Positions 8,471-44,808 of a DNA stretch of 49,330 bases are shown here, in pieces. Each line of letters starts with the position of its first letter. Positions within the stretch are counted from its first letter, which is position 1. Origin of the DNA: a virus; the IMG/VR virus record IMGVR_UViG_3300036719_004451, positions 1 to 49,330 of that record; one strand, 5' to 3'. The position numbers and the translations under genes were made by a program. The notes beneath the pieces were generated by a model. That model was not told where the DNA came from. It saw only the letters and a program-made list of their open reading frames with translations, and searched no databases.

Positions 8471-8845
8471 ATGAAAAAATTTATTATTACAGAAGAAGAA
8501 AAAAATTCAATCTTAAATCAACATATCCAAGCGACAAAAAGACAATATTTGTCAGAGAATAATATCTTAATGGAACAACCATATTTTTTGGAACCTTCCG
8601 AGGTCTTTGAAATTCAAAGTGGTTTGAATGATTATTTCAAAAGTAAGGGTGTGAAAATTGTAATTGTACCTGATGGTGCATGGGGACCTAAAACTATTGA
8701 AGCTCTAAAAAAGTTCCAACAAATGGAAGGATTAGATGTTGATGGAAAAATGGGACCAAAAACTATGTCCAAATTACAATCACTTGGAATTAATCAAAAT
8801 ATAATCAGTAAAATTGGTTCTGCTATTGCGAGCTTATTCAAATGA
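8471..8845 (+). CDS. Tagged peptidoglycan-binding protein, 124 aa
   Basis: Starts MKKFIITEEEKNSILNQH, a variant of the shared tag. Residues about 48-110 form a PG_binding_1 domain: an IQSGLNDY helix, VPDGAWGPKTIEALKKFQ, and VDGKMGPKTMSKLQSLG. A short hydrophobic helix ends the protein. There is no separate hydrolase domain, so it probably docks a virion component to the wall rather than cutting it. It overlaps the following ATG by four bases (ATGA). Confidence 0.82.
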   Translation: MKKFIITEEEKNSILNQHIQATKRQYLSENNILMEQPYFLEPSEVFEIQSGLNDYFKSKGVKIVIVPDGAWGPKTIEALKKFQQMEGLDVDGKMGPKTMSKLQSLGINQNIISKIGSAIASLFK

Positions 8846-20187: not shown

Positions 20188-22254
20188 ATGAAAAAATTTA
20201 TTCTTTTGATGTTTATGACTTTGATGTCTATAACATCGTTTGCTTCCCACTTAGCAGGTGGAGACATCCAATACAAATACATTGGAGATTCAACGGGAAT
20301 TCCAAATCACTACAAAGTATTATTAAGGGTATACCGTGATGTTACGGGTATTGCGATGCCAACAACAGATATTGTTACAGTCAGTTCTGGTTGTTATGCA
20401 AATCAAACCATAAACATGAATTTGATGGCTGGTTCTGGAACTGTTGCACCGACACTTTTTGATTGTGTTACTCCTGGCTCTCCATCTACAAAAACTTTGG
20501 AAATTTATCTTTATAGAGGATATGTTGTTCTACCGGGAACTTGTCCTACTTTTAAGTTTTGGTATGATAACTGCTGTAGACCAGGAAACATAACTAACAT
20601 ATTTACATCCAATGGTACCTTGGGGAATGATGGTTTCTTCTTCGATGCTGACTTGGATAACACTCTTGGTAACAACTCATCACCAATATTCATATCAGAA
20701 CCAGTACGTGCCTTTTGTGTAAATAACAGCTTCAATTGGGCTCAGAAAAGTGTGGAATATGATGGTGATAGTATTCATTATCAATTAATTGCCTGTCGTG
20801 AGAATGCCTACCCAAATCAAACCAATATTCCATTTGACCCAGGATATAGTGTAAACCAACCTGTGACATCGCAATATTTTACGATTAACCCCAAGACTGG
20901 AACCATTTCGTTCAAACCCACACAACAAGAAATTGATGTATTGGCAATCAAAATTAGTGAATATCGTTTCGATTCTTTATGGGGTGTTTGGTATCAGGTT
21001 GGTTCGGCATCAAGGGACATGATGATTGGTATTTCAGCTAACTGCTCTCCCTTGGCAATGCAAGGAGTCAAATTGGACTACAACTATCCAGGTCAATACT
21101 TGGATTCAATTACGATGTTGCCTGCGGTTGATTACAATTGTGGTGATACGGCAATTGATTTACATTTTGCAATCAAATTGGATTGTGAATCTGTTGCTGA
21201 TGATGGAACTGATTTTCGTTTGACAAATCCTTTGGGGCAACCTTTACCAATAAAGAAGTTGGTACCTCAATGTGATATTAACGGTGAGAGTTCCGTTCTT
21301 ACGGTGATACTTCAATATCCTCTTTTGGTGAATGGAAGATATTTCCTATATTCCAAAACTGGTAATGATGGTAATACTTTGGTTAATAAGTGTGGTATCG
21401 CCATGAATGAATTTGACACCTTGGTTATTGTTGTTGATGATTGTTTTGAACCCGTTTGGAAATTTGAAAACGTCACGGTGGTTAATGATAATCACACAAT
21501 GTTACAATGGAGTATTGACACCAATAGTTTTGATACAACCTATTTCCAAGGATATGGAATTTTCCGTTGGGATGGAACACAATATGCTTTTCGTCAATTA
21601 GTTACAGATTGGGACCGTTTGTACTATGATGATTTGATGGCAACTAATGTTGATGGACAACCTTACGATTACAAAATAGATTTCAGATTCAATAACTTTA
21701 TTTTCGGTCCGTCGGATTCTATACATTCGATTCATTTACAATCAAATGGAGAATGTGATTCGGTTTGTTTAGTTTGGAATTCCTATAATGGATGGGCGTT
21801 TCCTTTATATGATGTTTATATCAATTATCAGAACACATGGATTAAGTGGAATAACCAACCAATAGTTGATACCACTTATTGTATGGTCTCAGATACCTTA
21901 GAGGTAGGAAATTATGATATCAAGGTTGTTGCTGAAAATCTACCCTATTTAAGTGAAAGTAACTGGGTTAAATGTACACAACCCGCACCACCTGTGATAA
22001 CAATTCCAAACGTTGTCACACCTAATCAAGATGGTATTAATGAAAGTTTTATAATTAGAAACCTTTTACTTTATGATTATAGACCAATCGTTATTAAGAA
22101 TAGATGGGGAAGAACGGTTTTTCAAAGTTCTCAATATAACAACGATTGGGATGGAAGCAATGTTCCTGATGGTGTTTATTATGGTATGGTGAGTATCATA
22201 ATGAATAACCAATTGGTAAGTTATCCATTCATGGTTACAATTCTACATCATTAA
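20188..22254 (+). CDS. Secreted T9SS type B (gliding-motility C-terminal domain) surface protein, 688 aa
   Basis: An N-terminal signal peptide (MKKFILLMFMTLMSITSFAS) is followed by HLAGGDIQYKYIGDS, the typical start of large Bacteroidota gliding-associated proteins. The body is beta-rich with many Cys, and FTINPKTGTISFKPTQQEID resembles a cadherin/Ig-like domain. The C-terminal 85 residues contain PNVVTPNQDGINESF, NRWGRTVFQSSQYNNDWDG and PDGVYYG, the CHU_C / T9SS type B sorting domain recognised by the host type IX system. It would be displayed on the infected cell's surface. Confidence 0.88.
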   Translation: MKKFILLMFMTLMSITSFASHLAGGDIQYKYIGDSTGIPNHYKVLLRVYRDVTGIAMPTTDIVTVSSGCYANQTINMNLMAGSGTVAPTLFDCVTPGSPSTKTLEIYLYRGYVVLPGTCPTFKFWYDNCCRPGNITNIFTSNGTLGNDGFFFDADLDNTLGNNSSPIFISEPVRAFCVNNSFNWAQKSVEYDGDSIHYQLIACRENAYPNQTNIPFDPGYSVNQPVTSQYFTINPKTGTISFKPTQQEIDVLAIKISEYRFDSLWGVWYQVGSASRDMMIGISANCSPLAMQGVKLDYNYPGQYLDSITMLPAVDYNCGDTAIDLHFAIKLDCESVADDGTDFRLTNPLGQPLPIKKLVPQCDINGESSVLTVILQYPLLVNGRYFLYSKTGNDGNTLVNKCGIAMNEFDTLVIVVDDCFEPVWKFENVTVVNDNHTMLQWSIDTNSFDTTYFQGYGIFRWDGTQYAFRQLVTDWDRLYYDDLMATNVDGQPYDYKIDFRFNNFIFGPSDSIHSIHLQSNGECDSVCLVWNSYNGWAFPLYDVYINYQNTWIKWNNQPIVDTTYCMVSDTLEVGNYDIKVVAENLPYLSESNWVKCTQPAPPVITIPNVVTPNQDGINESFIIRNLLLYDYRPIVIKNRWGRTVFQSSQYNNDWDGSNVPDGVYYGMVSIIMNNQLVSYPFMVTILHH

Positions 22255-22780: not shown

Positions 22781-23785
22781 ATGTTAAAAGCAGACATCAT
22801 TGTCGACCTTCAAGCGGGAGACACAGGTAAGGGTAAAGTTGCTCACGCCTTGGCAAAAAAACCAAATTACTACACTCACGTTGTTCGTTATAACGGAGGA
22901 GGAAATGCCGGTCATACCGTATATCATAATGGTAAAAAGTTTGTGACACATTACATTCCTGTGGGTGTATTGTATGGGATTAAATCTATCATTGGACCTG
23001 GTTGTGTTGTGGACCCCGACAAGTTGGATATCGAAATTGCTGAATTGGAAAATGCGGGATTTGTTGTCCGTGGTAACTTATTTATTGATAAGAGAGTCCA
23101 CATTATTACACCTGAAAATATCTTGGAAGATTCCAAAGACACCAAGATTGGTACTACAAAAACTGGAAATGGTCCAACCTATCGTAACAAATATGACCGT
23201 AAGGGTCTAAGAGCTGAGGATTTTTATATTGATGATTGTCTCATTGACATTTATCGTGAATTCCACCAACATCAACCAAATGCACAAATTCTATTCGAGG
23301 GGGCTCAGGGATTCGAGTTGGACATTGACTGGGGTGATTACCCCTATGTTACATCATCACATTGCACCGTTGGTAGTGCAATTATGAATGGTGTGCCTCC
23401 CCAGTCAATCAACCGAGTTTATGGAATTGCCAAAGCATATCGAACTTATGTCGGGGCGAAAGACTTCGAGGGAAAAGACCCTATCTTTAATAAGATACGT
23501 GAGGTTGGTGAGGAGTATGGTGCAACAACTGGTCGACCACGACAAGTAAATTGGTTGAACATTGATGATTTAATGAAAGCAACCAACATCAATGGTGTTA
23601 CTGATTTAATCATCAACAAAATTGATATTTTGGAAAAAGTTGGAGTCTTCAAATTAATTGATGGTTATGACATTAGAGAGTTCACTAACTTGGAGGACTT
23701 CAAGGACCACATTCGAGATTTGGTTACCATATATTGTCCAACAGTAGAACATGTAAATTTTTCGGACACCCCGTTTGACATTTAA
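22781..23785 (+). CDS. purA: Adenylosuccinate synthetase, short form
   Basis: A 334-aa PurA homologue that joins IMP (or a relative) to aspartate using GTP. The P-loop region reads AGDTGKGK: the catalytic Asp14 is kept and the usual Glu after it is Thr. NAGHT keeps the catalytic His45. EGAQGFELDIDWGDYPYVTS, GATTGRPRQ and the guanine-recognising NKIDIL are present. It is about 100 residues shorter than bacterial PurA, close to archaeal PurA and phage PurZ in size. It probably boosts adenine nucleotides; a modified-purine role cannot be excluded. Confidence 0.88.
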   Translation: MLKADIIVDLQAGDTGKGKVAHALAKKPNYYTHVVRYNGGGNAGHTVYHNGKKFVTHYIPVGVLYGIKSIIGPGCVVDPDKLDIEIAELENAGFVVRGNLFIDKRVHIITPENILEDSKDTKIGTTKTGNGPTYRNKYDRKGLRAEDFYIDDCLIDIYREFHQHQPNAQILFEGAQGFELDIDWGDYPYVTSSHCTVGSAIMNGVPPQSINRVYGIAKAYRTYVGAKDFEGKDPIFNKIREVGEEYGATTGRPRQVNWLNIDDLMKATNINGVTDLIINKIDILEKVGVFKLIDGYDIREFTNLEDFKDHIRDLVTIYCPTVEHVNFSDTPFDI

Positions 23786-25904: not shown

Positions 25905-26963
25905 ATGAAAACAAAAATCAAACTTGAATACGTATGGCTTGATGGATACACTCCTGAGCCCAATCTTCGCAGTAAAGTGAAGGTTATTGAACTTGACGAT
26001 TTAGACATGTTCGATATCAATTACTGTCCTGAATGGTCCTTCGATGGTTCATCAACAAAACAAGCTGAGGGACATTATTCTGATTGTATCCTAAAACCTG
26101 TTCGGGTTTACAAAAACTACCTCAATAAGGGATACTATGAAAGTTTCTATGTCTTGTGTGAGGTTATGACCCCTGATGGGACACCACATCCATCAAATAC
26201 TCGTTGTTTGGCTGGTGAAGAAGATTCAGATATTTGGTTTGGTTTTGAACAAGAGTACACCATCATGAAAGATGGTCGTCCATTGGGATTCCCTAAAGAT
26301 GGATATCCGGCACCACAGGGTGAATACTATTGTGGTGTGGGTAATGGTAAGGTTGACGGACGTGAGTTTGTTGACAACCACATGGAGATGTGTCTTATGG
26401 CGGGGATTGACATCACTGGAACAAACGCTGAGGTTCTTTTGGGTCAGTGGGAATACCAAGTCTTCAGTAAAGGTAAACTAAAAGCTGGTGATGATTTGTG
26501 GATGTCTCGTTATATCCTTCAACAACTAAGTGAAGAACAAGGATTTACCATCGAGTTCCACCCCAAACCTGTTACAGGAGATTGGAATGGTTCAGGACTT
26601 CACTGTAACTTCTCCAATGGTATGATGAGAGATGTTGGTGGTTCAGATTACTTTATGATTTTGTTTGAAAGACTTAGAGAGCGTCACCAACTCCATATTG
26701 AAAACTATGGTTCGGATAATAATCTTCGTTTGACTGGCCGACATGAGACACAATCAATTGATAAATTTTCGTGGGGTGTATCTGACCGTGGTTCATCAAT
26801 CCGTGTTCCTTTGGCAACCGCTGAGAGTTGGAAAGGATATGTTGAAGACCGTCGTCCCGCATCAAACGGTGACCCCTATAAGATTGTTAAAGTGATTTCA
26901 GAGTCCATGGAATTCACCACCGATGTTGATGAGATTGTTGATATTCTATTCCAAGAGAACTAA
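25905..26963 (+). CDS. glnA: Glutamine synthetase, type II (GSII), 352 aa
   Basis: Length and motifs fit the eukaryote-like GSII group: LEYVWLDG at the N-terminus, CPEWSFDGSSTKQAEG, the metal-binding WFGFEQEYTI, AEVLLGQWEYQV, WNGSGLHCNFS, and RLTGRHETQSIDKFSWG followed by RGSSIRVP. It makes glutamine from glutamate, ammonia and ATP in the cytoplasm. It is full length, so probably active. Upstream is a TATTTAT box and an A-rich leader. The next gene is a membrane protein, and an asparagine-synthetase-like gene follows at 27406, suggesting amide nitrogen assimilation. Confidence 0.94.
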   Translation: MKTKIKLEYVWLDGYTPEPNLRSKVKVIELDDLDMFDINYCPEWSFDGSSTKQAEGHYSDCILKPVRVYKNYLNKGYYESFYVLCEVMTPDGTPHPSNTRCLAGEEDSDIWFGFEQEYTIMKDGRPLGFPKDGYPAPQGEYYCGVGNGKVDGREFVDNHMEMCLMAGIDITGTNAEVLLGQWEYQVFSKGKLKAGDDLWMSRYILQQLSEEQGFTIEFHPKPVTGDWNGSGLHCNFSNGMMRDVGGSDYFMILFERLRERHQLHIENYGSDNNLRLTGRHETQSIDKFSWGVSDRGSSIRVPLATAESWKGYVEDRRPASNGDPYKIVKVISESMEFTTDVDEIVDILFQEN

Positions 26964-28370: not shown

Positions 28371-30641
28371 ATGTTATTATCAATATTACTTACACTTGGG
28401 TTACAACAACAGGTTGATACCACAAGTTTGGAAGGACAACTAGAAGAGGTCACCGTCCAAACAACATTCAAAAGAGAATCCCAAGGTTCCTTAAATCTTC
28501 AAGCAAAGACCAGTGTCACCATGGTGGACGGGATGTCTCAAGAAATTATAAAAAAGAGTCCTGATAGGAACTTAAGTGAGACCCTCAAACGAGTTGGGGG
28601 TCTGACAATCCAAGGAGACCGGTTTGTTATCATCCGTGGACTGAACGACCGATATAATTCTGTACTTCTCAATGGAGCCCTTCTCTCATCAACAGAACCT
28701 GATAGAAGGGCTTTTTCATTTGATATAATTCCGAGTAACGTGGTTGAAACAATGGTGGTTAACAAAACCGCCAGTGCTAATCTACCCAACGACTTTGCCG
28801 GTGGAGTGATTCAAATCAACACAAAGAGTGAGTTTGTAGATGCCGGTCAGTCATTCTCACTTGGTTCTTCATACGGAACATTATCTACCTTTCAACCAAG
28901 TCAGTATGTAAGGTTCACTGACCTACCAAGTCTTTTTCCATCCACCAAGGAATTCAGAATGGGTTCATTAGAAGAAAGAAGATACTTTACCTCAATGATT
29001 CCAACAACCTTTGAAGTTCAAGACAGAACAAACCCGTTGAACTTGAACATCAACTATTCAATCATCAACAGAGTCAGACTCAAAGAAGGTGGGTTCGGAT
29101 TTGTTGCAAACGTAATCTACAGAAACTCAAATTCAATTACCTATTCAAACAGAAGGGACTATCAGTCACTTACGGAACTGGCATATGATTATAATGATAG
29201 GGTAAACACAAATACCCAAAACTTGAGTGCGATGTTCAACACAACATTTTTCTCAGGTTCCAAAAAGTTTACGGTAAAAAATCTATTCAACTATCAAGGA
29301 GAGAACCTATTCATTCACAGAACGGGTGAGAACTATGACAACCTTCAAGAACTTGATTACACTAACTCAATCGGATATCGAAAGTTCATTTACACTTCTC
29401 AATATGAGAAGACATGGTCCAACAAAACATTCGGAGTGAATTACTTTTGGATGAATCGAAACCAACCTGATTATCGTATCACCCCGTTGGCACGTTCACT
29501 AGGTTCACAAGACTCCATGAATTTTGTTTGGAGGGACACTTATAGATTTTGGTCTAAGATGAACGAACACGGAGTAGGGACTCACTACAACGTGAGTGGT
29601 AAAAAATTAAGTTGGGGACTAACTGAACAACTCAAATTTAGAATGTTTGATGCAAGGGTCTTCAGGTATAGTGACAAGATAACTTTAAGTGAAATAACAA
29701 ACAACACTGACAGTTACAATGGGGGTTCAAATATCTTGGCGGGTTATGTAATGTATAACGGAAAAGTTGGAAGACTTAATTATTCAGGTGGACTAAGAAA
29801 TGAGAACCAAAACTTCTTGGTTAATACCGCAGACTTTAGTGGTAGACAAGTTCAAGTTTTCAGAAACTATTTTGACTTCCTACCATCCCTGAATTTGAAT
29901 TACAACTTAACTGAGTCAAACAATCTGAGATTCTCAACGAGTCAGACAGTTGCTCGCCCTGAATTCAGGGAAGTGAGCAATTTTGCTTTCTATGATTTTG
30001 TCAGAAACGCACAGGTGATAGGTAATCCCAACCTTGATAAGTCCAAGATTACAAACGTTGATTTAAGATTTGAAAGTTTCTTTACACCAACTGAAAACTT
30101 CTCAACATCAGTTTTCTTCAAGCATTTTTCCAACCCGATTGAACAAGTGGTTGCGAATGGTTCATCACCGAGCAACTTGATACTAACTTACTCTAACCCC
30201 AATCAAGCATTTTTGTTCGGTGGAGAAATGGAACTCAGAAAGAAACTTGGAGAAAACTTCACCCTATCATCCAATCTTAGTTACATCAACTCAAGTGTAA
30301 CTGTTAATGGAACTAGCAGACCTCTTCAGGGTCAATCTCCATATATTATTAACACTGGTGTATTTTACACCAAGAAAAACATTTCTGTTTCGTTATTCTA
30401 TAATAGAATCGGGGAGAGAATATCAGCAGTTGGATTCAACGGATACTCCGACATTTATGAAAACGGAAGGGACCTCGTAGATGCGACAGTCCAATATAAA
30501 ACCAAAAAGACGGAGTTCAAACTCGGGTTGACTGACTTGTTATCTCAAGGAACGATTCTATATCAGAAGGTACCGAACAGGAATTTAATAAACACAATAA
30601 ACGAGAAAACAATCTCAATTTCACTAAACTACAAACTATGA
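28371..30641 (+). CDS. TonB-dependent outer-membrane receptor, 756 aa
   Basis: A short signal peptide (MLLSILLTLGLQQQ) leads to LEEVTVQTTFKRES, a TonB-box/plug start. The plug has DRNLSETLKRVGGLTIQGD, VIIRGLNDRYNSVLLNGALL, and NVVETMVVNKTASANLPNDF with GGVIQINT. The rest is a beta barrel of alternating aromatic strands (FGVNYFWMNRN, LRFSTSQTVARPEF) ending ISISLNYKL. It would import a ligand across the host outer membrane using TonB. It overlaps the next gene (ATGA), forming an operon with a lipoprotein. It looks full length and intact. Confidence 0.92.
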   Translation: MLLSILLTLGLQQQVDTTSLEGQLEEVTVQTTFKRESQGSLNLQAKTSVTMVDGMSQEIIKKSPDRNLSETLKRVGGLTIQGDRFVIIRGLNDRYNSVLLNGALLSSTEPDRRAFSFDIIPSNVVETMVVNKTASANLPNDFAGGVIQINTKSEFVDAGQSFSLGSSYGTLSTFQPSQYVRFTDLPSLFPSTKEFRMGSLEERRYFTSMIPTTFEVQDRTNPLNLNINYSIINRVRLKEGGFGFVANVIYRNSNSITYSNRRDYQSLTELAYDYNDRVNTNTQNLSAMFNTTFFSGSKKFTVKNLFNYQGENLFIHRTGENYDNLQELDYTNSIGYRKFIYTSQYEKTWSNKTFGVNYFWMNRNQPDYRITPLARSLGSQDSMNFVWRDTYRFWSKMNEHGVGTHYNVSGKKLSWGLTEQLKFRMFDARVFRYSDKITLSEITNNTDSYNGGSNILAGYVMYNGKVGRLNYSGGLRNENQNFLVNTADFSGRQVQVFRNYFDFLPSLNLNYNLTESNNLRFSTSQTVARPEFREVSNFAFYDFVRNAQVIGNPNLDKSKITNVDLRFESFFTPTENFSTSVFFKHFSNPIEQVVANGSSPSNLILTYSNPNQAFLFGGEMELRKKLGENFTLSSNLSYINSSVTVNGTSRPLQGQSPYIINTGVFYTKKNISVSLFYNRIGERISAVGFNGYSDIYENGRDLVDATVQYKTKKTEFKLGLTDLLSQGTILYQKVPNRNLINTINEKTISISLNYKL

Positions 30642-31843
30642 AAAAGTTAACAGCTTTTCTATTATCTTCACTTTTAATTTTTACTTCATGTGAGGATGAA
30701 ATCATTGACCCGAGCGAACTTGTTCTTCAGGGTACTTTGACTGAGGATAAAACCCTCACAAAAGATAAACTATGGACTCTAAAAGGGTATGTATACGTTC
30801 CTGAAGGAGTTACCCTTACCATTGAAGAGGGAACCACCATTCACAGTGACATCGCTGAGAAAGGCGCTCTTATCATCGAACGTGGTGGAAAGATTATGGC
30901 TGAAGGAACTTCGGATGAACCAATCGTATTCACTTCAGGAAACGCATTCCCACAATCAGGTGACTGGGGTGGTATTGTAATCTTGGGTAAAGCAAAGACC
31001 AACCAAATTGAACCAATCATCGAAGGTGGTGTTGGAAAAAATTATGGTGGAGAAGACGATGCTGATAACTCAGGTGTTCTCAAGTATGTGAGAATTGAAT
31101 ATGCTGGAATTGCGGCGTTCGCTAACTCAGAGGTAAATGCTCTTACTTTAGCTGGTGTCGGTAGTGGAACCGTAGTTGAATACGTTGAGTGTTATTACTC
31201 GTTTGACGATGCGTTTGAGTTCTTTGGTGGAACTGTTTCACCTAAGTACTTGGTGGCGGTTGCAACTGGTGACGATGATTATGACTTTGACTTCGGATAC
31301 AGAGGAACAATACAATATGCTATCTCAAAGAGAGACCCTTTGTTTGTTGACGGAGCGGATGCTGGTAACGGTATTGAATGTGATAACGACGGAGCTGGTT
31401 CAACACTTACCCCAACAACCAAACCAACCCTTCTTAACTTCACACTCGTAGGTCCTGTTTCACCTCAGTCTCTAACAAACCACAACTTGGCAATGAGATT
31501 CAGAAGAGGAACAAACTTCGTAGTTAAAAACTCAGTTTTCTATGGATATATGAAAGGTGGTTTACAGATTGAGAGTGACATCACCGTACAATCATTCAAA
31601 GATGGTGGTTCTGAATTCACAGGAAATGTTGTTCACAGCGTTGACACAACTAAAATCCTTATCACCAAATCTCCAGCAATTCTATCATTGGAAGAAATGA
31701 CAACCAAAGTGGTTTATGACAACAACACACTTTGGACATCTTCACTATCACCCGTTACAAATGGTTTTGAAACCGTAAATGGTAACGTAGGTGCTATCCC
31801 ACAAGGAACCAACAACTGGCTCCTTGGTTGGACCAAATTCTAA
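30638..31843 (+). CDS. Surface lipoprotein with beta-helix-like body, 401 aa
   Basis: A lipoprotein signal ends in LLIFTSC, and the next residues EDEI are acidic, typical of surface-exported lipoproteins in Bacteroidota. Repeated strands such as YVYVPEGVTLTIEEGTTI, AEKGALIIERGGKIMAEG and SDEPIVFTSG, then GDWGGIVILGKAK, suggest a right-handed beta helix. Co-transcribed with the TonB receptor, so it is probably the ligand-capture partner of that receptor, in the manner of SusD-like or similar pairs. Confidence 0.85.
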   Translation: MKKLTAFLLSSLLIFTSCEDEIIDPSELVLQGTLTEDKTLTKDKLWTLKGYVYVPEGVTLTIEEGTTIHSDIAEKGALIIERGGKIMAEGTSDEPIVFTSGNAFPQSGDWGGIVILGKAKTNQIEPIIEGGVGKNYGGEDDADNSGVLKYVRIEYAGIAAFANSEVNALTLAGVGSGTVVEYVECYYSFDDAFEFFGGTVSPKYLVAVATGDDDYDFDFGYRGTIQYAISKRDPLFVDGADAGNGIECDNDGAGSTLTPTTKPTLLNFTLVGPVSPQSLTNHNLAMRFRRGTNFVVKNSVFYGYMKGGLQIESDITVQSFKDGGSEFTGNVVHSVDTTKILITKSPAILSLEEMTTKVVYDNNTLWTSSLSPVTNGFETVNGNVGAIPQGTNNWLLGWTKF

Positions 31844-35098: not shown

Positions 35099-35265
35099 CC
35101 AACGAAGAATTCGTTGAAGAATTATATATGAAGGCTTTTACCAAGGGTTTCATAGAAGAATTCCGATTGGAGCTAGAAAGTTTACGAAAAAAACATGCAA
35201 ATTTGAGTCGCACTGAAATTGCAGAAATTGCTTACATGGAAACAAAAAGGAGAGTTAATGAATAA
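35095..35265 (+). CDS. Small charged helical protein, 56 aa
   Basis: MTNEEFVEELYMKAFTKGFI, then basic and acidic helices ending YMETKRRVNE. It overlaps the previous gene by four bases and the thymidylate synthase start by eight. Function unknown. Confidence 0.5.
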   Translation: MTNEEFVEELYMKAFTKGFIEEFRLELESLRKKHANLSRTEIAEIAYMETKRRVNE

Positions 35266-36304
35266 TTTAGACAAATCATATCAATCACTACTTCAAGACA
35301 TTATTGATAACGGAGTAGAGAAAAAAGACAGAACAGGTACTGGAACTATCTCAGTATTTGGTCGTCAAATTAGACATAAAATGTCTGAAGGTTATCCTTT
35401 GATTACTACCAAGAAAATGGCATTCAAAACTATGGTGACTGAGTTGCTGTGGTTCCTCCGTGGTGATACCAACATAAAGTACTTGATTGATAATGGTTGT
35501 CATATTTGGACTGGAGACGCCATTAAGAACTACGAGAAACATAATGGAGAAATTGATTGGGGTCTCTTTACCACAAAAGAAGAAGCGTTTACTGAGAAGA
35601 TTAAAACCGATGATGAGTTTGCTAAACAATGGGGTGAATTAGGTCCTATCTATGGTAAACAATGGCGTAATTGGGAATTACCTGCTTGGGATGAATATGG
35701 TAGACCTCATCAAAATTGGACTCAAATTGACCAAATCAAAGATTTAATTTCAGAACTCAAAACGAATCCCGATTCAAGGAGGTTAATGGTATCCGCTTGG
35801 AACGTTAGTGAATTGATGCAAATGGCTTTACCACCCTGTCATTATGGGTTTCAAGTTTATACACGAGAACTAAACCTTGATGAACGAATTGAATACCTAA
35901 GGTCAATTACCGACCCATTTAATTTTCACTCTGATTATTTCCACGAACATTTGGATTATTATAACGTACCTCGTAGAGCAATATCTCTCATGTGGAATCA
36001 ACGTTCAGTTGATACATTTTTGGGTTTACCATTTAATATTGCGTCTTATGGTTTATTACTGGAAATCATAGCTAAGGAGGTTAACATGATTCCTGATGAG
36101 TTGATTGGAAACTTAGGAGATGTTCATTTGTATAGTAATCACGTTGAGCAAGCTAAAGAACAAATTGGTAGAGAATCGTTTAAGTTACCTATATTGGCCA
36201 TAATAAATGACACCAAATTGAAGTTTGATGAATTTACTTTGGATAATTTCAAATTAATAAAATACCAATCACACCCATCAATCAAAGCGCCTTTATCAAA
36301 TTAA
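35258..36304 (+). CDS. thyA: Thymidylate synthase, with insertions
   Basis: A 348-aa ThyA-type synthase that methylates dUMP to dTMP with methylene-tetrahydrofolate. DRTGTGT, WFLRGDTNIKYL, GPIYGKQWRNW, DPDSRRLMVSAWN-type PDSRRLMVSAWNVSEL, catalytic C194 in PPCHYGFQ, and GLPFNIASY are present. Asn260 in PFNIASY is the residue that selects dUMP; Asp there would mark a dCMP hydroxymethylase, so this is a thymidylate synthase. It is longer than the E. coli enzyme: extra segments lie near residues 88-125 and 205-240. ATG 35258 overlaps the upstream stop. Confidence 0.93.
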   Translation: MNNLDKSYQSLLQDIIDNGVEKKDRTGTGTISVFGRQIRHKMSEGYPLITTKKMAFKTMVTELLWFLRGDTNIKYLIDNGCHIWTGDAIKNYEKHNGEIDWGLFTTKEEAFTEKIKTDDEFAKQWGELGPIYGKQWRNWELPAWDEYGRPHQNWTQIDQIKDLISELKTNPDSRRLMVSAWNVSELMQMALPPCHYGFQVYTRELNLDERIEYLRSITDPFNFHSDYFHEHLDYYNVPRRAISLMWNQRSVDTFLGLPFNIASYGLLLEIIAKEVNMIPDELIGNLGDVHLYSNHVEQAKEQIGRESFKLPILAIINDTKLKFDEFTLDNFKLIKYQSHPSIKAPLSN

Positions 36305-36794: not shown

Positions 36795-37346
36795 ATGAAA
36801 ATAGAACAAGGACCAATTCAAGGATTATACATCCTTACCCCTACTGTTTATCAAGACGATAGAGGTTATTTTTTTGAATCTCATAATCAACAATTTTTAC
36901 GGGAGAAAGGTTTATACCTAAATTTTGTTCAAGACAATCAATCAGTTTCTTATAAAAATGTTTTGAGAGGTTTGCATTTCCAAAAACACGCACCACAAAC
37001 AAAATTAGTGAGATGTGTTGTGGGTGTTGTTAATGATGTTGTTGTTGATTTACGGAAAAACTCACCAACCTATAAGAAAATATTTCAAGTTGAACTATCT
37101 GAGGATAACATGAAAATGGTTCTCATTCCAAAAGGATGTGCACACGGATTTTCAGTTATTTCTGATGTTGCGGTATTTCAATATAAATGTGACGAAATAT
37201 ATTTACCCAACCAAGATGGAGGAATAATCTATAATGACCCACAATTTCCAATAGACTGGAAAATTGATATGAAGGATGCTATTATTTCTGAAAAAGATAG
37301 AGTATTACCTCAATGGGAAGAAATTGAAAAAATGATTAACTTCTAA
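36795..37346 (+). CDS. rfbC: dTDP-4-dehydrorhamnose 3,5-epimerase
   Basis: A 183-aa cupin epimerase: YQDDRGYFFESHNQQFLRE, NVLRGLHFQKHAPQTKLVRC with catalytic His61, VVDLRKNSPTYKK, and IPKGCAHGFSVIS. It converts dTDP-4-keto-6-deoxyglucose to the rhamnose precursor, so it makes an activated deoxysugar, probably used for a glycan. No RfbA, RfbB or RfbD partner is in the window, so it may act with host enzymes. Confidence 0.92.
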   Translation: MKIEQGPIQGLYILTPTVYQDDRGYFFESHNQQFLREKGLYLNFVQDNQSVSYKNVLRGLHFQKHAPQTKLVRCVVGVVNDVVVDLRKNSPTYKKIFQVELSEDNMKMVLIPKGCAHGFSVISDVAVFQYKCDEIYLPNQDGGIIYNDPQFPIDWKIDMKDAIISEKDRVLPQWEEIEKMINF

Positions 37347-40079: not shown

Positions 40080-40113
40080 TTTATTCTACACAGAATCATT
40101 GATTCAAACAAAA

Positions 40114-40136
40114 CCCCTCATTAGAGGGGTTTTTTA
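40114..40136 (+). terminator. Terminator CCCCTC-atta-GAGGGG
   Basis: A six-pair stem and T-run. The stop codon of the convergent gene at 40121 falls in the stem-loop. Confidence 0.85.
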
Positions 40137-40335: not shown

Positions 40336-42204
40336 ATGAATATATTAGGAATTCACACAGGTCATGACGCGTCTTTAGCCATGATTAAAGATGGGAGATT
40401 AGTTCTTGCGGTTTCGATGGAAAGATACTCAGGGTTAAAAAAAAGTTCTTTAGTCAAAATGGAATATTTGGAAAGATTTCTTTGGGATTGCAACGTCCAA
40501 ATAGAAGATATTGACTGTATTTCTATGGGATTTTGGGACCAAAGTAGTATTCCATTTATGAGGATTTATTCTCCTGAAAATGAAAATTACCCTTTAAGTG
40601 TTTTCGGAAGATACAATATGGATGTGGCAATCCTCAACCACTTGGATAATTATCCAAACAAAAGAGACAATTGGAAACCTCAATATATACCTGGATTAGG
40701 TTTTACGTTACCCGATTTTTGGGATAGAACAAGGGCACCATACTTAGGTTATAATTTTAGACATAAGATGAGTTATACCCTAAACGTGACAATTCAAGGT
40801 GTTGATAAGATTTTCTCAGGTCGTTTTGTGGACCATCACGTAGCGCATTCATCAGCGGCATTCTTCACTTCCAATTTTGAGAAGGCGGCTATTTTCACCG
40901 CGGATGCTACGGGAAGGGATGCCACTGCTACGAGTCTCATGATGATTGGAGATGGAAATCAATTGGATATATTCAAAAATCCTCACTATAGCTATGGTAC
41001 TTTTTATGATTCTGCAACTGAACTATCAGGATTGGGTCCAGGATTGGAAAAAGCTGGTGTTCTTATGGGACTAGCTGCTTATGGTAATGTCAGTGGTAAA
41101 ACACAAAGAAATTGGGAGGAGTGGACAAAACCTGAAAAACATAGAACTGAGAATGAAGATACTACTTACGATGATTGGTTGTATTCTCAAATTAGTGGAA
41201 AATATCCTCATTTGGATTCCTCAATTCCCGCATGGAGAAAAAAACAGGGTGACCGAAATATTCATATGTATACGAGAGAATATCAACAATGTTTTTCAAA
41301 AGAAGAATCTACATCTCAAGAAGTAATGAATATAGCCGCTGATGTTCAATTTATGGCTGAAAGGTCCTTATCAAAATATACCCAAGAACTTTTTGAAGAG
41401 ACCAAAGCAATAAATGATGGTAATCTTTGTGTTGGTGGTGGGACATTCCTGAATTGTAATGCGAACTACAAGATTTTAACTGAGACAGATTTCGAGAGGA
41501 TGCATATGTTTCCCTCTTGTGGTGACGATGGACTTTCTGTTGGTTCTGCTTTGTTTGTCAACCACGTTCTTAACCAAGAACCTCGACAAAAATACAGTCC
41601 AAAAGATTTGATGTATTTGGGTTACCATTATGATTATTATCCGCAGAGTAAATTTTATCCTTACGAATTAAATTTAGACGATGTGGCTAAAGAACTTTCC
41701 GATGGTAAAATAGTTTGTTGGTATCAAGGTGGGGGTGAAATGGGACCAAGAGCTCTCGGACACCGTTCTTTCTTGTGTGACCCAAGGAGAAAAAATATGA
41801 AAGATATTCTTAACAAACGAGTTAAGTATAGAGAATGGTTCAGACCTTTTGCGCCAGTTGTTCTTAACGAATATAAATCTGATTGGTTCAGGATGGACTT
41901 TGAGTCCCCTTTTATGTTGTTTACCGTTCCATGTAAAAAACCTTTTGACATTCCCTCAGGAGTTCACATCGACAACACCGCACGGGTACAAACAATTACA
42001 AAAGAAGATAATTTGAGATTCTATACTCTAATTGATAAATTTAGAGAAATAACCAATGTCCCCATACTACTAAACACATCATTAAATGTTAAGGGACGAC
42101 CAATTGTGGAAACTCCTGACGATGCTTTGAAACTATTCGAGGAGTCAGATGTTGATTTATTGGTAATAAATGATATGATGTATTATAAAAACAAATTCAA
42201 ATGA
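40336..42204 (+). CDS. NodU/TobZ-type carbamoyltransferase, copy 1 (622 aa)
   Basis: Carbamoyltransferase of the NodU/CmcH/TobZ family, which carries a carbamoyl group from carbamoyl phosphate, via carbamoyl adenylate, to a hydroxyl. The N-terminal Kae1-like domain begins GIHTGHDASLAMI, with VDHHVAHSSAAFF near 166-176 (His metal ligands) and TADATGRDATA; GGGTFLNCNANY lies later. The C-terminal domain has GGGEMGPRALGHRSF and YREWFRPFAPVVL. A small gene links it to a second homologue. Substrates in this genome are unknown: antibiotic-like metabolite, glycan or DNA base are possible. Confidence 0.92.
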   Translation: MNILGIHTGHDASLAMIKDGRLVLAVSMERYSGLKKSSLVKMEYLERFLWDCNVQIEDIDCISMGFWDQSSIPFMRIYSPENENYPLSVFGRYNMDVAILNHLDNYPNKRDNWKPQYIPGLGFTLPDFWDRTRAPYLGYNFRHKMSYTLNVTIQGVDKIFSGRFVDHHVAHSSAAFFTSNFEKAAIFTADATGRDATATSLMMIGDGNQLDIFKNPHYSYGTFYDSATELSGLGPGLEKAGVLMGLAAYGNVSGKTQRNWEEWTKPEKHRTENEDTTYDDWLYSQISGKYPHLDSSIPAWRKKQGDRNIHMYTREYQQCFSKEESTSQEVMNIAADVQFMAERSLSKYTQELFEETKAINDGNLCVGGGTFLNCNANYKILTETDFERMHMFPSCGDDGLSVGSALFVNHVLNQEPRQKYSPKDLMYLGYHYDYYPQSKFYPYELNLDDVAKELSDGKIVCWYQGGGEMGPRALGHRSFLCDPRRKNMKDILNKRVKYREWFRPFAPVVLNEYKSDWFRMDFESPFMLFTVPCKKPFDIPSGVHIDNTARVQTITKEDNLRFYTLIDKFREITNVPILLNTSLNVKGRPIVETPDDALKLFEESDVDLLVINDMMYYKNKFK

Positions 42205-42389
42205 ATAACGAAGAAAAGGCAAGAGTTTATAACCAATTACTCCATGACCACAACATGCTTTCAAATCAAATTAACGGAATTAAAGGAAGTAGTTTTGAGT
42301 TAAACGAATCTCAAGAAAGACAAATCAAAGAATTACAGGCTAGACAAAATCAAATTATGATGCACGTCAACAGATTGTTGGCAATGTAA
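42201..42389 (+). CDS. Small coiled-coil protein, 62 aa
   Basis: MNNEEKARVYNQLLHDHNML and LNESQERQIKELQARQNQIM indicate a helical hairpin. It starts four bases inside the first carbamoyltransferase gene and ends 11 bases before the second, so it is in the same operon. It could be an assembly or linking subunit; function unknown. Confidence 0.6.
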   Translation: MNNEEKARVYNQLLHDHNMLSNQINGIKGSSFELNESQERQIKELQARQNQIMMHVNRLLAM

Positions 42390-42400
42390 TTGAACAAAAT

Positions 42401-44188
42401 ATGGTAGTCTTAGGATTAACACCCAATCATGACGCTAGTGCGTGTGTTATAATTGATGGTAAGATTGTTTCAGCAATCACTCGAGAACGTTTGTCTCGTC
42501 ACAAAAAATCTCGTTTCATATCTCAAAAAATGTTGGACTACTTGTTTGCAGAGGCGAACATAACTATTGATGATGTAGACTATGTCGGAATTAGTTATTG
42601 GTTTGAAAACAGAGAAGATTGGAGAAACGAAAACGAGGACATTAAACTTTATATTCCAAAAGATGTTGCGTTTATTTTTTCACCTTCTCACACCAATAAC
42701 AATCAGGAGTTATGGTCTGACGAAAAACCTGAATTCGTTGAAGGATTGGGTTACAGACTAAGGGGTGATTTGTCACATCTTTGTCCACCTTCAACCAACA
42801 AACCATATGATTCAGTTCCAATTAACTTTGAAATCTATGGGAGGGTAATACCTGGTTGGTTTGTAAATCATCACCAAGCACATGCGGCTTCGACCTATTA
42901 CACATCTAATTTTGATGAAGCGGCGGTCTTTACTATGGATGCTACGGATAACAATCCATGGGTTTGTTCATTATTTTCCTATGGTTATAAAAACAAACTC
43001 GAAACATTATACTACCCTGGTATCCAAATAGGTCATGCTTATTCCCAATTTACAGAAATGTTGGGTATCGGACATGCTATTTTCAAAGCAGGAAGCATGA
43101 TGGGTTTGGCAGCTTATGGTAAACCTAATTTGGATGTTGTTAAAAATATTAACAAGTACACCAAGTCTTATTGGGAGAGAAATGAGAGAGGAGATGATTG
43201 GAGATGGATTTATAGATTGTTCATGGATACCACAGGTAAAGTGGTAACAAAGTATGCTCCTGAAACTCCCGCTATTGGAGATAACTATATCATAGAAGAA
43301 CACTTCAACCTCGAAAATTCAGATTCCCAAGAGGCTATGGATGCGGCAGCAACCATTCAATTTGTATTCGAAGAAACGGTTTTCAAATTCGCCAGAGAAT
43401 TATGGGACGAAACAAAAAAATATAATGGTAACAACTTATGTTTAGCCGGAGGTAGTTTTCTGAATTGCACCACAAACGGAAAGATACACAAAAACACTCC
43501 ATTCAAAAATGTTCACGTTTATCCTGGTGCGGCTGATGATGGTTTATCTGTTGGTTCTGCTCTCTATGTGACTCACCACTTACTCGGAATTCCAAGGGTT
43601 CATAAAACTGTGGAAGAGGTTGTTTATACTGGAAAAAAATACTCTACACCTGAAGGTGGTAAGGAACTTAGTTTGGATTTCATAGCCTCTAAGTTGAACG
43701 AAGGGAAAGTAATTGCTTGGTTTCAGGGAGGTTCTGAGTTTGGACCAAGAGCTCTCGGTAACAGGAGTTTTTTGGCAAATCCTTGTATTGTTGAAATGAG
43801 GGACTACATCAATTTTGAAATTAAAAATAGAGAATGGTATAGACCTTTTGCACCTTCAGTATGTATTGAAAATGTTCAAGAATATTTTGATATCGATGGA
43901 GAATCACCATTCATGTTGAAAATTTGTGACGTTTTGAGTGATAAAATACCTGCTGTAACCCACATAGATGGCTCTGCAAGACCTCAAACCGTGAAAAGGG
44001 AGGACAACCCAATCTATTATGATTTGATTCGTCATTTTGAAAGATACAGTGGAGTTCCTGTTTTGTTGAACACTTCTTTGAACTTATCACATGAACCAAT
44101 TGTTGAAACCCCCGAAGATGCCATGAACTTGTTTCATAACTCGAAAGTTGATATACTTGTTATAAACAATTCAATGTGGGTGAAATGA
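42401..44188 (+). CDS. NodU/TobZ-type carbamoyltransferase, copy 2 (595 aa)
   Basis: Second full-length homologue: GLTPNHDASACVII at the N-terminus, VNHHQAHAASTYY near 155, TMDATDNNPWV, AGGSFLNCTTNGKI, and GGSEFGPRALGNRSF near 443, with NREWYRPFAPSV at the C-terminus. The key residues are conserved but the two differ widely, so they probably have different acceptors or act in sequence rather than being a recent duplication. The stop overlaps the next ATG (ATGA). Confidence 0.92.
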   Translation: MVVLGLTPNHDASACVIIDGKIVSAITRERLSRHKKSRFISQKMLDYLFAEANITIDDVDYVGISYWFENREDWRNENEDIKLYIPKDVAFIFSPSHTNNNQELWSDEKPEFVEGLGYRLRGDLSHLCPPSTNKPYDSVPINFEIYGRVIPGWFVNHHQAHAASTYYTSNFDEAAVFTMDATDNNPWVCSLFSYGYKNKLETLYYPGIQIGHAYSQFTEMLGIGHAIFKAGSMMGLAAYGKPNLDVVKNINKYTKSYWERNERGDDWRWIYRLFMDTTGKVVTKYAPETPAIGDNYIIEEHFNLENSDSQEAMDAAATIQFVFEETVFKFARELWDETKKYNGNNLCLAGGSFLNCTTNGKIHKNTPFKNVHVYPGAADDGLSVGSALYVTHHLLGIPRVHKTVEEVVYTGKKYSTPEGGKELSLDFIASKLNEGKVIAWFQGGSEFGPRALGNRSFLANPCIVEMRDYINFEIKNREWYRPFAPSVCIENVQEYFDIDGESPFMLKICDVLSDKIPAVTHIDGSARPQTVKREDNPIYYDLIRHFERYSGVPVLLNTSLNLSHEPIVETPEDAMNLFHNSKVDILVINNSMWVK

Positions 44189-44592
44189 CAAATCATACAA
44201 GAGATATATTAGTTCTAAGTGCCATCAGTATTTTATTGATGATAGGAACATACAAGTGTGGTAGGGAACAAACCCAATCTGAGATAATTCAACCTGTTCC
44301 CACACAAATTGTTGAAAAAAGAATTGAACCTGAAAATAGTATTGATGAAGATTACTATGAAGAAGAAGTCCAAGAAGAACACTTCTTAATCGTAGGTTCA
44401 TTTACCGATGAGCAAATTGCTCAGGAATACGTTGATAGACTCTTAAACGAATCTAATGATGCTTTTATAACAGAGCAAGATGGTTACTACCGAGTATCAA
44501 TTTACTCCTCCAATAATCTTCAGGACGTTGTTAGGAAGAAAGAGCAATTGGCGTACACAGAACAAAAAATGTGGGTTTATAGTCGTTATTAG
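44185..44592 (+). CDS. Membrane-anchored SPOR-like protein, 135 aa
   Basis: A membrane helix near 8-22 (ILVLSAISILLMIGTY), an acidic linker, and a C-terminal domain with HFLIVGSFTDEQIAQEYVDR, LNESNDAFITEQDGYYRVSI and YSSNNLQDVVRKKEQ that fits the SPOR fold, which binds septal peptidoglycan lacking stem peptides. It would sit in the cytoplasmic membrane facing the periplasm. A role in cell-wall targeting or division is possible. ATG 44185 is preferred to a GTG nine bases earlier. Confidence 0.78.
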   Translation: MTNHTRDILVLSAISILLMIGTYKCGREQTQSEIIQPVPTQIVEKRIEPENSIDEDYYEEEVQEEHFLIVGSFTDEQIAQEYVDRLLNESNDAFITEQDGYYRVSIYSSNNLQDVVRKKEQLAYTEQKMWVYSRY

Positions 44593-44628: not shown

Positions 44629-44808
44629 CTACCTCTCGTGGGATGAGTTGTCCTCATCTTTGTTTGATGAAATAAACATATTCCTAAAAATCAAACCGAA
44701 ACAACTGCCGAATATGAAAAAACATACAAGATTATTTGTTAGCATTCCTAATATCCAAAAGAATACTCCAATTACCAAATAAGTTAAATTTTTGTTTTTC
44801 ACCTTCAA
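44629..44808 (-). CDS. Small two-helix membrane protein, about 59 aa
   Basis: The minus strand from TTG 44808 (or GTG 44802) reads KVKNKNLTYLVIGVFFWILG, then LVCFFIFGSCFGLIF and a charged tail ending DNSSHER, stop at 44629. Two hydrophobic helices and a polar tail are unlikely by chance, and the region is otherwise empty, but the non-ATG start lowers confidence. Confidence 0.45.
   Translation of the reverse strand: MKVKNKNLTYLVIGVFFWILGMLTNNLVCFFIFGSCFGLIFRNMFISSNKDEDNSSHER

Follow-up and report, generated by a model that had tools for sequence, protein, structure and literature searches.

The virus record IMGVR_UViG_3300036719_004451 carries, side by side, two genes, here called CT1 and CT2, whose products are, as judged from their sequences, complete NodU/TobZ-family O-carbamoyltransferases with intact catalytic residues. 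The whole stretch of DNA that was analysed, hereafter the window, is a linear virus fragment of 49,330 bases and represents an incomplete genome. On balance, CT1 and CT2 are probably both sugar O-carbamoyltransferases with a glycan as substrate, which they may modify at different positions; the sugar acceptor, the two different positions and the benefit are the parts of this reading that we infer. A role of the pair in DNA modification is unlikely, because the residues, the clade position and the dUMP-type thymidylate synthase of the window all differ from those of the DNA type.

Family membership and ancestry of the two enzymes

An earlier note on this DNA had described two diverged NodU/TobZ-type enzymes that keep their key motifs, and this description held: both open reading frames (ORFs) were found at the coordinates given in Table 1, with both family domains and all the mapped residues. 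Pfam matches to Carbam_trans_N (E 2e-32 and 113.5 bits for CT1, E 4e-42 and 145.4 bits for CT2; cut-off 24 bits) and to Carbam_trans_C (E 9e-65 and 217.8 bits, E 2e-64 and 216.8 bits; cut-off 27 bits) span the two proteins end to end. Both also match PHROG 1601, ‘Nol-like carbamoyltransferase’, with E of about 1e-120; its phage members, such as those of cyanophages P-SSM2 and S-SSM7, share family and architecture with CT1 and CT2. Comparison with TobZ using phmmer gave E of 1e-55 for CT1 and 5e-60 for CT2, and alignment showed that 11 out of 11 mapped TobZ residues (H14, H114, H118, D137, D338, R418, K443, R449, R498, N528 and S530) are kept in each enzyme. PDB variants carry mutations at H14, K443 and S530; the roles of the remaining ones were reportedly described by Parthier et al. 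in 2012. The AlphaFold2 model of CT1 (predicted local distance difference test score, pLDDT, of 84) has TobZ as the nearest solved fold, followed by GdmN, VtdB and NovN. These antibiotic enzymes share the fold and the catalytic residues of the window enzymes, although identity in the structural alignment is about 24% and the window lacks an antibiotic biosynthesis context. Neither protein is a NodU orthologue, with scores of 147.5 and 142 bits against the cut-off of 1000 of the NCBIfam model nodul_NodU. The label ‘diverged’ is correct, since CT1 and CT2 are only 39% identical over their full length.

When viral contigs were searched with an alignment, 80 loci were returned (numbered with the prefix L), while single-sequence searches returned only L003 and L004. 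Both enzymes were placed in a 140-protein tree. CT1 grouped with eight phage enzymes (L032, L010, L008/L009, L043, L006/L007 and L015) and CT2 with L003, its nearest relative at 67% identity, each group having a support of 100. A recent tandem duplication was rejected, as each copy is closer to relatives elsewhere and the approximately unbiased (AU) test, run on a quick tree, rejected CT1 and CT2 as closest pair (p 1e-8). By this phylogenetic evidence the two genes are thus old paralogues or separate acquisitions.

CT1-like and CT2-like genes also occur singly in several related records. An adjacent second carbamoyltransferase was found in 12 of 82 related viral loci that contain such a gene (L010, L039-L041, L044-L046, L049, L052, L062, L071 and L072), and this recurrence, across several clade combinations, suggests that pairing is useful. 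Eight of the 12 paired loci share one conserved A/B arrangement, with the A and B genes in two distinct clades. An adjacent ‘carbamoyltransferase x2’ in S-RIM44 was discarded as a pair, since it looks like one split gene (182 aa + 338 aa). Literature searches, limited to open-access papers, turned up no study of carbamoyltransferases that occur in pairs in phages; a 2010 paper lists a cyanophage genome with three copies, one of which is the S-SSM7 gene (PMC3037559). CT1 and CT2 differ from the P-SSM2 and S-SSM7 enzymes in belonging to another phage sub-clade and in being two adjacent copies. With CT1 and CT2 the window adds two members to a known phage gene family, in an arrangement that recurs.

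Hydroxymethylase-linked carbamoyltransferases and DNA modification

The earlier note had connected the pair with carbamoylated hydroxymethylcytosine and had proposed looking for hydroxymethylase genes. A 5-hydroxymethylcytosine (5hmC) carbamoyltransferase was characterised by Yang et al. in 2021; according to that study, its relatives are found together with thymidylate-synthase-family genes, dCMP deaminase and PRA-PH domains, and the TobZ positions W408, G421 and R423 were the three most associated with modified DNA (PMC8670742). In Bacteroides phage BF503P2 and in Acinetobacter phages HHU4 and Effie, we found that the carbamoyltransferase gene adjoins a thymidylate synthase (TS)-family gene with D177. 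These three phages and 12 loci from a search seeded with two of them make up what we call the hydroxymethylase-linked clade, and in all 15 the fetched flank contains a D177 TS-family gene, that is, one of dCMP hydroxymethylase type. In TobZ numbering, every member carries V/I/L408, T423, N443 and M449, and 13 of the 15 carry C421. Neighbours in ten of the clade loci included thymidylate synthase (11 proteins), dCMP deaminase (4), MafB19-like deaminase (4), dUTPase (3) and PRA-PH (2). This context reproduces the one published for the 5hmC carbamoyltransferase, and we take the clade as a candidate representative of the Yang et al. enzyme, an assignment made by context and residues and not from its published sequence.

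CT1 and CT2 belong to the same superfamily as the 5hmC enzyme, and the core formed by H14, the metal ligands, R418, R498, N528 and S530 is common to them and the clade. However, both lack its residue signature, carrying W408, G421, R423, K443 and R449 instead; both fall outside the clade, which had a support of 100 in a mixture-model tree; and the AU test rejected their placement within it (p 2e-41). A dCMP hydroxymethylase partner was not found on the incomplete 49.3-kb fragment, where the sole TS-family gene found encodes an enzyme with N177 and H147, of dUMP type. The TS found in the records of their close relatives, the longest of which has 297 kb, were likewise all of this N177 type.

These differences have to be weighed against several circumstances that would suit carbamoylation of 5hmC (or hydroxymethyluracil) in phage DNA or deoxynucleoside triphosphates by CT1 and/or CT2. 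Phage carbamoyltransferases with such activity exist (PMC8670742), a TS-family gene lies on the same contig, three CT1-like loci adjoin gp32 and RecA-like replication genes, and a hydroxymethylase could be encoded elsewhere, given that the contig is incomplete. Considering that residues, tree position and TS type all argue the other way, we discarded a DNA-type 5hmC carbamoyltransferase as leading reading and regard such activity as quite improbable; the hydroxymethylcytosine link of the earlier note found no support. Even less credence goes to a two-step decoration outside the hydroxymethylase-linked clade, in which CT1 and CT2 would transfer carbamoyl groups to the sugar attached to a glycosylated base of DNA, or to a DNA hydroxyl produced by an unrecognised enzyme encoded elsewhere in the genome. 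TET/JBP hydroxylases (PF12851) gave no match in the window and 13 relatives, a result that is uninformative because the controls gave none either.

Three further observations were made. In the conserved tandem pair of loci L039, L040, L041, L044, L045, L049, L062 and L071, the second gene keeps W408 and R423 and has M449 in 8/8 and N443 in 3/8 cases, thus partly resembling the hydroxymethylase-linked clade. The phage record of L037 (L136, record G018, near base 78290, and L134) contains a canonical N177 TS plus a D177 hydroxymethylase-type paralogue, and the paralogue lies far from the carbamoyltransferase of that record. Lastly, an adenylosuccinate-synthetase-like gene of the window (22781-23785) matches the PHROG ‘2-aminooxy adenylosuccinate synthetase’, and its GDTGKGK motif retains the Asp.

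Gene neighbourhoods and the acceptors of the pair

We surveyed the genes within 5 kb of 16 members of the phage clade that contains CT1 and CT2, a clade separate from the hydroxymethylase-linked one. The neighbouring families included Glycos_transf_1 (6 proteins), glycosyltransferase families GT2 (3) and GT25 (2), sulfotransferases (2), FkbM methyltransferases (2) and 2OG-Fe(II) oxygenases (5); neither thymidylate synthase nor dCMP deaminase was among the 25 commonest families of this survey. In two CT1 relatives, L009 and L032, the carbamoyltransferase gene immediately precedes two genes for GT4-type glycosyltransferases, after which come GT2, UDP-sugar dehydrogenase, UDP-GlcNAc 2-epimerase or Caps_synth genes; L015, also related to CT1, has GT25 and GT4 genes nearby. 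A gene for a DXD glycosyltransferase lies near the CT2 relative L003, in a looser glycan context, and the sister-group member L013 has an HldE-like kinase/cytidylyltransferase. In phage isolate P-SSM2, a single and more distant carbamoyltransferase gene lies in a lipopolysaccharide (LPS)/heptose cluster, immediately ahead of the genes for heptose kinase and phosphoheptose isomerase. The window itself lends thinner support, its sugar-type genes being rmlC, 3 kb upstream of the pair, and, far upstream, genes for a hexapeptide acyltransferase and a DegT aminotransferase.

In enzymes of this family, the C domain converts carbamoyl phosphate and ATP into carbamoyl adenylate, and the N domain passes the carbamoyl group to a hydroxyl. 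The C domains of CT1 and CT2 would make carbamoyl adenylate from host carbamoyl phosphate, and the carbamoyl would then be moved to hydroxyls bound by the Kae1-like N domain. Glycan sugars would be the most likely acceptors, belonging to a host surface polysaccharide or lipooligosaccharide or to a phage-directed glycan. Two enzymes would most simply correspond to two acceptor hydroxyls or two sugars, by analogy with NodU and NolO, two members of the family that carbamoylate different hydroxyls, C-6 and C-3, of one Nod factor sugar (PMC5080398). Pseudomonas WapO, which carbamoylates an LPS-core heptose (PMC8005017), offers a model for carbamoylation of a cell-surface glycan. The benefit would likely lie in altering surface glycans that serve as receptors for other phages. 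Carbamoylation may matter for phage adsorption, because insertions in a host carbamoyltransferase gene, or in rhamnose genes, were among the mutants potentially involved when phage KIL3b infects Pseudomonas syringae pv. porri (PMC7216180).

Several observations weigh against this reading. In the window the pair has no glycosyltransferase gene next to it, and rmlC is the nearest sugar gene. The three CT1-like loci with gp32 and RecA-like neighbours (L006, L007 and L043) adjoin these and other replication genes, not glycan genes, and the CT2-related L005 is flanked by thioredoxin-like and glutaredoxin-like genes, with a glutamine synthetase gene close by. In addition, the ratio of N-domain to C-domain identity between CT1 and CT2 is 0.68, compared with 0.65 +/- 0.08 in other pairs of similar identity; the test for divergence specific to the acceptor domain, considered as a sign of two substrates, therefore gave a null result. 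Because divergence does not single out the acceptor domain, the notion of two acceptors comes from the number of genes and not from their sequence. The acceptor might also be a metabolite, a tRNA or a protein, with neither a glycan nor a DNA role. Members of the family act on antibiotics (TobZ, GdmN, NovN), the published 5hmC enzyme also modifies 5hmC in RNA (PMC8670742), and the window has unusual metabolic genes, among them those for a glutamine synthetase, for a BKACE enzyme and for a tRNA-synthetase-like protein. Yet Pfam recognised no antibiotic-type biosynthetic genes in the window, and the sugar-type neighbours of the relatives suit a glycan better, so that this kind of acceptor appears unlikely.

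The earlier note had also proposed two acceptors or a two-step modification, with the 62-aa protein encoded between CT1 and CT2 as a possible partner subunit. Two acceptors or positions are plausible, but an obligate two-step unit is doubtful because CT1-like and CT2-like genes are also met on their own in related records. The 62-aa protein had no Pfam, PHROG or NCBIfam match. Homologues of it (38% and 35% identical) are encoded beside unrelated genes in phage contigs L137 and L138, whose records contain no carbamoyltransferase; we therefore rejected the protein as an obligate partner, and the partner-subunit idea is left without support in that form. Solitary CT1-like and CT2-like genes, a 62-aa gene that is found apart from carbamoyltransferases and an ordinary acceptor-domain divergence would all fit a redundant or passenger pair with one shared acceptor, inserted by chance in a variable region and following no two-step logic. 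This explanation, which overlaps the others, is somewhat unlikely: all mapped catalytic residues are kept in both enzymes, and adjacent pairs recur among the viral loci in several clade combinations. Two sugar O-carbamoyltransferases thus remain our preferred reading of CT1 and CT2.

Gene order, remaining genes and implications

Table 1. Features of the window discussed in the text
Feature	Position	Strand	Remarks
Thymidylate synthase, dUMP type (N177, H147)	35219-36304	+	PF00303; residues aligned to E. coli ThyA
RmlC, dTDP-4-dehydrorhamnose 3,5-epimerase	36795-37346	+	TIGR01221 above cut-off; PF00908
Intrinsic-terminator-like hairpin upstream of unit	40110-40133	+	10-bp stem and T run; consensus match only
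CT1, O-carbamoyltransferase, 622 aa	40336-42204	+	Kae1-like N domain and YrdC-like C domain; PF02543 and PF16861
Small 62-aa ORF between CT1 and CT2	42201-42389	+	
CT2, second, diverged O-carbamoyltransferase, 595 aa	42401-44188	+	PF02543 and PF16861
SPOR-domain (peptidoglycan-binding type) small protein	44176-44592	+	Pfam SPOR E 6e-5; overlaps CT2 end
Weaker terminator-like hairpin downstream of unit	44640-44660	+	8-bp stem; consensus match only

CT1, the 62-aa ORF, CT2 and the SPOR ORF all run in the same direction; the 62-aa ORF and the stop of CT1 share 4 bases, and CT2 begins 12 bases past the 62-aa ORF. A single transcription unit, with the SPOR-domain gene probably as its final gene, is plausible from this arrangement. 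The ‘operon’ of the earlier note stands to that extent, backed by co-direction and flanking hairpins, but the number of hairpins in the region (5) is not above the shuffled expectation (4.1).

Other genes of the window showed several features of their own. Unrelated ORFs, at 8471, 34579 and 39254 of the window and at several places in L137 and L138, begin with a similar short N-terminal tag (ITEEE/ISESQL/ITENQL-like), which looks like an N-terminal sorting or packaging signal. Unusual Bacteroidota-type surface genes (28371-31843 and 20188-22254) encode a TonB-dependent-receptor-like outer-membrane protein and a CHU_C (type IX secretion signal) protein, and a 401-aa lipoprotein-like ORF adjoins the TonB-dependent-receptor-like gene. 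A glutamine-synthetase-like gene is located at 25905-26963, and another one lies in L005 (1495-2631), 0.7 kb upstream of the carbamoyltransferase gene of that locus.

Overall, the pair is a clean example of two diverged, probably sugar-type carbamoyltransferases encoded next to each other in a single phage. The contrast in clade and residues is a more useful outcome than the pair itself: phage carbamoyltransferases that are candidates for the DNA type can be told from the type found in the window by TobZ positions 423, 443 and 449 combined with a linked hydroxymethylase that has D177. This residue and hydroxymethylase test predicts carbamoylated cytosine in three cultured phages, Effie and HHU4 of Acinetobacter and BF503P2 of Bacteroides.

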